NCBI GenBank assembly: GCA_012797735.1
Contig: JAAZOP010000401.1
Span: 1 to 34,927, forward strand
Direction of reading: 5' to 3'
Origin: Myxococcales bacterium
Lineage (GTDB): Bacteria; Myxococcota_A; Polyangia; DRWM01; JAAZOP01
DNA: 34,927 bases
Shown: in pieces, positions 2,373 to 34,927 of the stretch
Layout: every line of letters starts with the position of its first letter
Position numbering within the stretch: position 1 is the first letter of the stretch
Notes under the pieces: model-generated
The model's input: only the letters and a program-made list of their open reading frames with translations
Told to the model about the DNA's origin: nothing
Databases searched by the model: none
Translations under genes and position numbers: made by a program

Positions 2373-4307
2373 ATGCGTGGAATTCGGAAGCCGGGACGCG
2401 CGGGACGGGTCGCCTGGCTGGTACTGGCGGCAGAGGTGCTGGCGGCCGGGTGCGAAGAGCCGGAGATGGAGGTGGGTCGGGCCCGGCTGGCCCTGGGGGA
2501 GCCGCAGGACGGCTTCCCGGACTGGCAGGAGCGGGTGATCTTCGAATGGACGAACCGGGCGCGGTGCGACCCGGCGGCGGCGCTGGCGGGCTGCACGGTG
2601 TGCGCCGAGGCGGCGTGCTACTCGCCGGTCCCGCCGCTGGTCTGGAACCACAACCTGGCGCGGTCGGCGCGCTTCCACAGCGCGAACCTGGTGCTCAACA
2701 GCGCCGGCTTGCGGCACGACTCGCCGTGCACGCTCGTGCCGACCATCGCCACCGACTACGTGCCGGGGCCGTGCAGCGGCCTGGCGAGCTGCGCCTGCGT
2801 CGGCGGAACGCTCGCCTGCAGCCCGACCTGCACGACCTGGGACGCGCGTGTCCGGATGTTCGGGACCTCGCCGTCCGGCGAGAACATCGCCTACGGCTCG
2901 ACGAACCCCGACAGCATCTTCACCCTCTGGCTGTGGGAACCCGACTCGAACCCCGCCTGCGGCTGGCGCACCACGAACGGACACCGCGCGAACATCCTCG
3001 GCGGTTCGCGGGCGATCGGCGTGGGCCGCCAGGCGAACTACTTCACGCAGGACTTCGCCGGCACCGGCACCCCCTCCGGCGTGGTCAGCGGCGTCCACTA
3101 CCCGCAGACCGGAACCTCCATCCAGTTCTGGGCCAACTGGTACTCGACGGCGGCCCCGGCCTCCGCGGTGGTCAACATCGATGGGACCTGCACCCCGTTG
3201 GCCCGCGCCCGCGGCTCCGACACCAACGGCGCCTGGACCGCAACCGTCACGCTCGCCGCCGGCGCCTGTCACCGGTACTACTTCCGGTTCACGAGCGCGA
3301 GCGGCATCGACTACGACTATCCGACGACGGGATCGTTCGGCATCAACTGCGCCGACTGGGAGGCGACGCGACCCGCGACCTGCGGCTGCACCCCCGCCTG
3401 CGCCGGACGCGAGTGCGGGCCCGACGGCTGCGGCGGCTCCTGCGGCTCCTGCCCCGCCGGCTCGACCTGCAACGCCTCCGGCCTCTGCGTCTGCACCCCG
3501 AGCTGCGCCGGACGCGAGTGCGGACCCGACGGCTGCGGCGGCTCCTGCGGTTCCTGCCCCGCCGGCTTCGAATGCAATGCCGTCGGCGACTGCGTGCCGG
3601 CCGGGGCGGACGCCGACGCCGATGCCGATCTGGACGTCCTGACCGACACCGGCGCCGACGCCGATGCCGGCGGCGACGCCGACCTGGACGGCGCGACGGA
3701 CGCTGCCGCCGACGCCGATGCCGGCGGTGACGCCGACCTGGACGGCGCGACGGACATCGCCGCCGACAGCGTGCCGGGCGAGACCACCTGCGACCCGTCG
3801 GCGTGCAACGCCCACTGCCGGGACATCGGCGCGCCGGGAGGCGTGTGCAGGAGCGACGGCGAGTGCGACTGCATCGACGACGGCGACGTTGCCGGTGAGG
3901 GGTCCGGCGACGCCGCCGGCGACGGCGGCGCGGGCGACGACTCCGGGTCGGGGTGCTCCTGCGCCGTCCCGCCCGACGCCCGGGGCGGTTCCTGGGTGCT
4001 GCTCGGAGCGGCGGCGGCACTGCTCTTCCGGCGGCGGCGAGGCGGCAAGCGGATACCCGCGGGCGACCGCCGCCGCAGGGGGACGCCGGCTCGTACCCGT
4101 TCACGGCCTCCAGCACGGCTGGCCAGAGAACGGGTGGCGCGTCGGCGAGCGCCGCGCCCGAGCCGATGCGCGGGGGGTCCGGGGGGGACGCAGAGGCCGC
4201 GTCTGGGAAGCCGCCGAATTCCGGCAGATGTGCGGCCGGGCGGTCCCCCCCCGGGTGAACGGATACGCCGGCTCAGCCCCGGTAGAAGGTGCCCTTCGGC
4301 ACCGTGA
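2373..4307 (+). CDS. Secreted CAP/SCP-like domain protein with Cys-rich repeats, Asp/Ala/Gly linker, six-Cys module and MYXO-CTERM-like tail
   Basis: Signal peptide; CAP-like features (WNHNLARSARFHSANLV, GENIAYGS, GWRTTNGHRANIL); two CxPxCAGRECGPDGCGGSCGSCPAG repeats; DADAGGDADLDGATD repeats; CSC + hydrophobic segment + RRRR near the end. Confidence 0.85.
   Translation: MRGIRKPGRAGRVAWLVLAAEVLAAGCEEPEMEVGRARLALGEPQDGFPDWQERVIFEWTNRARCDPAAALAGCTVCAEAACYSPVPPLVWNHNLARSARFHSANLVLNSAGLRHDSPCTLVPTIATDYVPGPCSGLASCACVGGTLACSPTCTTWDARVRMFGTSPSGENIAYGSTNPDSIFTLWLWEPDSNPACGWRTTNGHRANILGGSRAIGVGRQANYFTQDFAGTGTPSGVVSGVHYPQTGTSIQFWANWYSTAAPASAVVNIDGTCTPLARARGSDTNGAWTATVTLAAGACHRYYFRFTSASGIDYDYPTTGSFGINCADWEATRPATCGCTPACAGRECGPDGCGGSCGSCPAGSTCNASGLCVCTPSCAGRECGPDGCGGSCGSCPAGFECNAVGDCVPAGADADADADLDVLTDTGADADAGGDADLDGATDAAADADAGGDADLDGATDIAADSVPGETTCDPSACNAHCRDIGAPGGVCRSDGECDCIDDGDVAGEGSGDAAGDGGAGDDSGSGCSCAVPPDARGGSWVLLGAAAALLFRRRRGGKRIPAGDRRRRGTPARTRSRPPARLARERVARRRAPRPSRCAGGPGGTQRPRLGSRRIPADVRPGGPPPGERIRRLSPGRRCPSAP
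3393..3600 (+). repeat. Two tandem Cys-rich repeats (C-T-P-x-C-A-G-R-E-C-G-P-D-G-C-G-G-S-C-G-S-C-P-A-G) within the CAP-like protein
   Basis: Near-identical repeats read directly from the translation. Confidence 0.85.
3655..3765 (+). repeat. Asp/Ala/Gly-rich coding tandem repeat, ~54 bp (18 aa) period
   Basis: DADAGGDADLDGATDAAA / DADAGGDADLDGATDIAA repeated in protein and DNA. Confidence 0.75.
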
Positions 4308-34423: not shown

Positions 34424-34444
34424 TCGGTGCGAGGGAGAGAGACG

Positions 34445-34927
34445 ATGCGTACGCTGGCCATCGCGGCCATGATCGCGGGCTTGGTCGGGTGCGGCGGCCG
34501 GACGGTGGACGAGAACGCGTGTCTCGGGCCGTTCTGCGGCGAGGTGCCGGACGGAGGGGGCGTGCCGTGCACGGCGACGGCCTGCAACGACTCCTGTCGG
34601 ACGCTCGGCTACGCCGGCGGCGCCTGCACGGCGGACCTCTGCACCTGCACCGGCGCGGCGGACGGGGACGCGGACGGGGACGCCGACGCCGACGCCGATG
34701 CCGACGACGGCGAGACCGGGCCGCTTTGCCCGGCAGGGCTATCGTGGTGCGTCGACCGTTGCGTGGACATCCGCGTCGACCCGGACAACTGCGGCGCCTG
34801 CGGAACGACCTGCGCGGAGGACGAGGTGTGCGGCGAGTTCGCGTGCCGGTTCGCCTGTCCCGCGGGGACGACGGACTGTTCCCGATCCTGCGTGGACCTG
34901 CTGCACGACCCGCGCCACTGCGGCGAT
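34445..34927 (+). CDS. Cys-rich lipoprotein with six-Cys (defensin-like) module and NCGxCGxxC repeats; truncated by window end
   Basis: MRTLAIAAMIAGLVGCGGRTVDENAC; PCTATACNDSCRTLGYAGGACTADLCTC; DGDADGDADADADADDGE; CPAGLSWCVDRCVDIRVDPDNCGACGTTCAEDEVC; open at the right edge so absent from the ORF track. Confidence 0.85.
   Translation, partial: MRTLAIAAMIAGLVGCGGRTVDENACLGPFCGEVPDGGGVPCTATACNDSCRTLGYAGGACTADLCTCTGAADGDADGDADADADADDGETGPLCPAGLSWCVDRCVDIRVDPDNCGACGTTCAEDEVCGEFACRFACPAGTTDCSRSCVDLLHDPRHCGD

Follow-up and report, generated by a model that had tools for sequence, protein, structure and literature searches.

A predicted defensin-fold module beside the membrane anchor of a myxobacterial CAP-domain surface protein, and its expansion within a genus

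The window analyzed here (the whole stretch of 34,927 nucleotides from a Myxococcales genome) encodes a CAP-domain surface protein that carries a short six-cysteine module between an acidic linker and a C-terminal anchor; the features of this locus, together with a second module in the same window, are collected in Table 1. An earlier note, made from the letters of this DNA without database searches, had proposed both the CAP domain and a MYXO-CTERM-like anchor, and profile searches bear it out: PF00188 scores above its gathering threshold, and TIGR03901 matches positions 3879-4052 with 23.6 bits (cut-off 20), which places the protein among the MYXO-CTERM proteins. With the MYXO-CTERM/myxosortase surface proteins it shares the signature (GCSC, Cys codons 3954-3956 and 3960-3962), the hydrophobic helix, and the Arg cluster. 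The open reading frame continues for ∼80 residues beyond this Arg cluster (4041-4307), so that the true C terminus is uncertain; the last part of the frame overlaps a Rieske-like reading frame on the minus strand (4273 onward) at the 3' end of the latter. It should be noted that the protein carries a lipobox at its N terminus (recognized, as throughout, by a simple script) in addition to the MYXO-CTERM anchor at its C terminus, as does a paralog (L293); a lipobox-like signal is also found in an 85% ortholog (L292), the contig of which ends early. With two anchors, the CAP protein may possibly be a doubly lipidated surface protein.

Table 1. Coordinates of the CAP-domain protein, its parts, and the second module of the window
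Feature	Positions	Strand	Basis and remarks
CAP-domain surface protein (host reading frame)	2373..4307	+	Translation; 644 aa from ATG 2373
N-terminal signal with lipobox L-A-A-G-C	2373..2453	+	Script; predicted lipidated Cys is residue 27
CAP domain (PF00188), residues 84-222	2622..3038	+	26.9 bits, E 9.3e-6; gathering threshold 21.1
Two tandem Cys/Gly-rich repeats (CTPxCAGRECGPDGCGGSCGSCP...)	3381..3593	+	Sequence reading; no kinship to the module
Acidic linker, rich in Asp/Ala	3594..3785	+	Sequence; most host proteins have a like linker adjoining the module
Predicted CSalphabeta (defensin-fold) module	3789..3872	+	A1 profile, 42.2 bits, E 6.4e-10 in own genome
Short acidic Gly/Asp spacer, module to anchor	3873..3944	+	Sequence
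MYXO-CTERM anchor	3945..4040	+	TIGR03901, 26.4 bits there
Second predicted CSalphabeta module of the window	about 34556..34660	+	41 bits, E 1.6e-9; N-terminal in lipoprotein-like reading frame

The module reads CDPSACNAHCRDIGAPGGVCRSDGECDC in translation, and its cysteines follow the spacing C-x4-C-x3-C-x9-C-x5-C-x-C, exactly as first described; the leading Thr of the peptide given in that description is encoded by the preceding codon (3786-3788). The window contains the spacing pattern 4-3-9-4/5-1 at two places, and 150 dinucleotide-preserving shuffles of the window do not contain it at all, which rules out a chance origin of the pattern; real modules are distinguished by their score with a profile built from 38 relatives of the module (the A1 profile). 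The second occurrence lies in a reading frame (34424-34927) with a lipoprotein-like signal, the module, and then a Stig1-like stretch; this frame runs off the end of the contig and has a near-copy (L249) on contig C103.

Searched against the PDB, the A1 profile found 92 sequences at E ≤ 1 (best 3.7e-7), and the best 60 of these are insect defensins, short CSalphabeta peptides from scorpions or wasps, or designed peptides that use a CSalphabeta scaffold. When the non-Cys columns of the profile were permuted, such that spacing, composition, and conservation were retained, a single match was left (nasonin, E 0.081); likewise, Pfam Defensin_2 matches 33 of the 38 members before permutation and none of the 38 after it. 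As the PDB and Defensin_2 matches nearly vanish on permutation, the resemblance exceeds what cysteine spacing provides. Against the Defensin_2 gathering threshold (PF01097, 20.4 bits), the full window protein scores 18.9 bits, the isolated module 24.9-26.6 bits, and the full-length L145 protein 22.6 bits. AlphaFold2 run with an alignment predicts a helix (residues 7-16) and two strands (21-24 and 30-33) with a pLDDT of 88, and the same helix and two strands are obtained when the window module and its flanking residues are folded as a single sequence, at a local pLDDT of about 90. A rival explanation is convergence, i.e., a Cys-rich repeat that looks CSalphabeta-like by its cysteine spacing and nothing else, an idea to which the short length of the module and the wealth of unrelated Cys repeats in the host proteins (MopE, Stig1-like) lend some color; a spacing-only resemblance is ruled out by the column-permutation control, which left spacing and composition in place, and in view of the folding of the module from a single sequence we regard convergence as extremely improbable.

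Structure comparison points the same way. Among the 50 Foldseek matches listed from the PDB, almost all are CSalphabeta structures. Navitoxin, BmBKTx1, and drosomycin superpose with rmsd values of 0.5-0.8 Å over about 29-30 columns; the E-values lie above 0.1 because the query is short (∼30 residues). All six cysteines are kept in 140 of 140 full-length matches, with CxxxC in the helix, CxC in the last strand, and the cysteine order of CSalphabeta peptides, and a GXC gamma-core (Gly two residues before Cys4) is present in 98% of the 77 genus modules with standard spacing. Variants that have lost a cysteine pair, from which disulfide pairing could be read, were absent from the 140 full-length matches; from the fold and the cysteine alignment with solved structures, the expected pairing would be C1-C4, C2-C5, and C3-C6. 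Membership in another, unrelated Cys-rich family, the case that the earlier note had named as fatal to its proposal, found little to sustain it, EGF-type Pfam matches being weak and confined to few of the 38 members. We conclude that the module very likely adopts the CSalphabeta/defensin fold of one alpha-helix and a two-stranded sheet, and the original assignment, for which structure prediction and a Foldseek comparison had been proposed as the check, is thereby supported by profile, prediction, and structure search alike.

The module does sit in a CAP-domain protein, as originally described, and it is not peculiar to this protein, since there are about 40 modules in the genome, on many unrelated proteins. 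The A1 profile gives 40 matches in the genome of origin (38 with E < 1e-3) and 37, 41, and 46 matches in three genomes of the same genus, and a genus-wide expansion of the module is as good as certain. Elsewhere the modules thin out. A profile search across the phylum, as the earlier note had suggested, yielded counts that are lower bounds for class and phylum: in the rest of the class, a minority of genomes have modules, at least one to three each (at least 27 of 318 genomes are positive, the genus counted in), and elsewhere in the phylum modules are rare on such lower-bound counts. In a scan of GTDB for the spacing pattern, real modules were told from noise by profile score, matches below ∼20 bits being Cys/Gly-rich noise; the matches listed include groundwater Deltaproteobacteria MAGs and small peptides of Corallococcus, as well as candidate modules in Acidobacteriota and nanoarchaeal contigs. 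The nanoarchaeal cases (L172, a 1590-aa reading frame, and L222, of 317 aa) have the same six-Cys spacing at 29-31 bits within longer proteins; contamination or mis-binning of these contigs is possible.

In the genome of origin, 39 modules are distributed over 30 host reading frames. As a rule, a lipobox is followed by a short acidic spacer, then by one to three modules, an (Asp-Ala)n linker, and an unrelated domain. The domains beyond the linker comprise MopE repeats, a P-domain, an SGL-like propeller, FGE-sulfatase, Stig1, and CAP, and further hosts are beta-helix-like proteins, Laminin_G_3 proteins, and M36/M4 peptidases; most host proteins are 200-1100 aa long. The CAP hosts themselves vary, the module being C-terminal in the window protein and N-terminal in L250, which has a weak CAP match. 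The reversed order, with the module adjoining a C-terminal MYXO-CTERM-like anchor, is seen in the window protein, its CAP paralog L293, L230, L145 (beta-helix-like), and L161 (Laminin_G_3), and also in two proteins from another family of the class (L101 and L103). A recognized anchor is present in 94 of 112 host reading frames (which include orthologs of one another and hence are not all independent); in these, the distance from the anchor Cys to the module has a median of 24.5 residues and is 60 residues or less in 79 of the 94, and the median relative position of the module is at 0.076 of the free length. Although there are exceptions (some modules are distant from the anchor or, as in L243 and L252, at the extreme C terminus), anchor-proximal placement of the modules is highly probable. 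Two kinds of sequence variant were also seen: L231, L166, and L259 have two additional cysteines that occur together, located in the helix-strand loop and after Cys6, respectively, and likely form a fourth disulfide, and a short six-Cys stretch at the C terminus of L040 and L257 (GCDPLLC..SCGGTC..GGECEC), in which the C3-C4 loop is far shorter, may be a degenerate module.

Because the modules adjoin both types of anchor, they could conceivably serve in sorting or export, as a folded tag close to the lipid anchor that machinery such as type II secretion would recognize on the way to the cell surface; such a role would be compatible with the proposed route of myxosortase clients, which are thought to fold, become lipidated, and then exit via the T2SS (PMC11980579). 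However, the majority of MYXO-CTERM proteins are without a module, and the majority of modules belong to N-terminal lipoproteins. The genome of origin has about 48 MYXO-CTERM proteins above the cut-off, of which, judged by coordinates, the window protein alone has an adjacent module; in a second genome (G003), the figure is similarly about one (some 48-51 such proteins per genome). Moreover, CAP relatives from other genera (L294 and L295) are without the module, and L295, though module-less, still terminates in a MYXO-CTERM-like anchor. Since nearly all MYXO-CTERM proteins and these CAP relatives do without it, the module is not required for export; a general export tag for MYXO-CTERM proteins is disfavored, and we consider the tag explanation as a whole improbable. 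The CAP relatives further indicate that the module was gained, or lost, within the linker.

The composition of the modules bears on whether they act as defensins proper. The genus modules (n = 97) have a median net charge of -2 and a mean of about -2, and not one of the 97 contains Lys. Conserved across modules are the six cysteines and two glycines and, more weakly, Asp-Pro and turn residues; the commonest spacing in the family is 4-3-9-4-1, the window module being one residue longer in the C4-C5 loop. Because the modules are anionic and Lys-free and have little conserved besides six Cys and two Gly, a role as antimicrobial or channel-blocking peptides is unlikely, and the antimicrobial activity that had been suggested for the module fits poorly.

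Cardoso et al. (2024; PMC11561630), who described 74 cis-defensins from bacteria and distinguished five classes, restricted their survey to proteins of 30-130 aa, and embedded modules would therefore have been excluded from it. The class I cis-defensins of that survey (short n-loop, mostly from Corallococcus) share with the modules the CSalphabeta core, the GXC gamma-core, and the short first loop, but they are small, secreted, stand-alone peptides with 30-130-aa precursors, cationic in our Corallococcus matches, whereas the modules are anionic, number about 40 per genome, and are embedded, here within a 644-aa anchored protein. Four small secreted peptides from Corallococcus/Myxococcaceae (L129, L183, L199, and L223) have the spacing 4-3-9-4-1, score 32-40 bits with the A1 profile, and, standing alone, carry a net charge of +2 to +3; to judge from their genus and features, they are probably published class I defensins. 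Stand-alone bacterial defensins, including these cationic peptides of the same spacing, are the nearest known kin of the modules. They are closer than the comparator first put forward, the Anaeromyxobacter peptide AdDLP, which, like other two-disulfide CSH peptides, resembles the module in being myxobacterial with a disulfide-stabilized helix, but has four cysteines, lacks the GXC gamma-core, and stands alone (PMC5116183). Actinodefensin/actifensin (NF038042; PDB: 2ru0) belongs to the same fold class, and 2ru0 is among the Foldseek matches, but these are free bacteriocins, and NF038042 matches the module weakly (16.0 bits against an NCBIfam cut-off of 65 bits). The arthropod defensins and short CSalphabeta toxins (PF01097; PDB: 1ica, 2rty, 1pjv, 1scy, and 2koz) share fold, cysteine order, GG-x-C, and the SAC..HC pattern, and navitoxin (2rty), as aligned, has the commonest spacing of the module family; unlike the modules, they are free secreted animal peptides without a membrane anchor or fused domain. 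They are also typically cationic.

It could nonetheless be argued that the module is a true defensin, acting as an antimicrobial or antagonistic peptide that the surface protein either displays or releases, given the fold and gamma-core of the module, the cationic Corallococcus peptides of like spacing, and the antibacterial activity of actifensin-type defensins (PMC6989792 and PMC8819291). Against this, an antimicrobial defensin is a cationic, released peptide, and the genus modules are Lys-free, negatively charged segments of long proteins, lying beside the anchor; even a stand-alone relative, the class II peptide xanthusin-1, showed no antimicrobial activity (PMC11561630). We therefore hold this possibility to be very unlikely.

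What, then, might the module do? Our overall reading, which we favor by a modest measure, is that a CSalphabeta domain has been reused as a non-toxic, anchor-adjacent building block in surface proteins that have a lipid anchor. In each protein, one to three copies would adjoin the membrane anchor, after the lipobox in lipoproteins or before the MYXO-CTERM segment, and the Asp/Ala linker would connect them to very different functional domains. As a compact, disulfide-locked stalk or collar, the module would stabilize the segment next to the anchor in a folded state that resists proteases, would set the functional domain at a distance from the outer membrane, and would have a surface free to vary. 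This stalk or collar function is put forward tentatively, with chances somewhat short of even. The main rival is a binding role, in which each copy would recognize its own partner (a surface glycan, a matrix polymer, peptidoglycan/lipid II, or another protein) and serve in tethering or cell-cell contact. A variable surface on a fixed scaffold in ∼40 copies would suit such a role, as would the diversity of partners bound by known CSalphabeta peptides, e.g., actinomycesin, a bacterial defensin that inhibits cell-wall biosynthesis (PMC8819291). Ortholog comparison gives an omega of 0.39 for the modules, which becomes 0.60 (interval 0.41-0.84) when Cys and Gly are left out; for the domains downstream, it is 0.24. 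The purifying selection on module positions other than Cys/Gly leaves room for a host-specific binding surface. On the other hand, strong conservation across modules does not extend to any surface residue other than Cys and Gly, and binding domains are usually distal, whereas the modules are separated from the anchor by no more than about 25 residues; we rate a binding role as unlikely, though it is a serious competitor to the stalk or collar.

A literature search that covered few subscription journals yielded neither an account of anchored bacterial proteins with CSalphabeta modules nor a paper that treats MYXO-CTERM and defensins together, and the embedded, expanded, anionic form of the defensin fold seems undescribed in the literature searched. 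Bacterial defensins have so far been described as small, stand-alone, secreted peptides; with ∼40 embedded anionic CSalphabeta modules per genome, the fold probably does a job other than killing. As natural Lys-free, disulfide-stabilized mini-domains, the modules should be easy to express and assay. More speculatively, and with rather little probability, the defensin fold might be a general, non-toxic, shuffled extracellular domain of anchored bacterial proteins, from which stand-alone bacterial, and possibly eukaryotic, defensins and toxins were released as cationic peptides, rather than the reverse. In any case, the modules bring a large number of bacterial sequences to bear on the origin of defensins and scorpion-type toxins.
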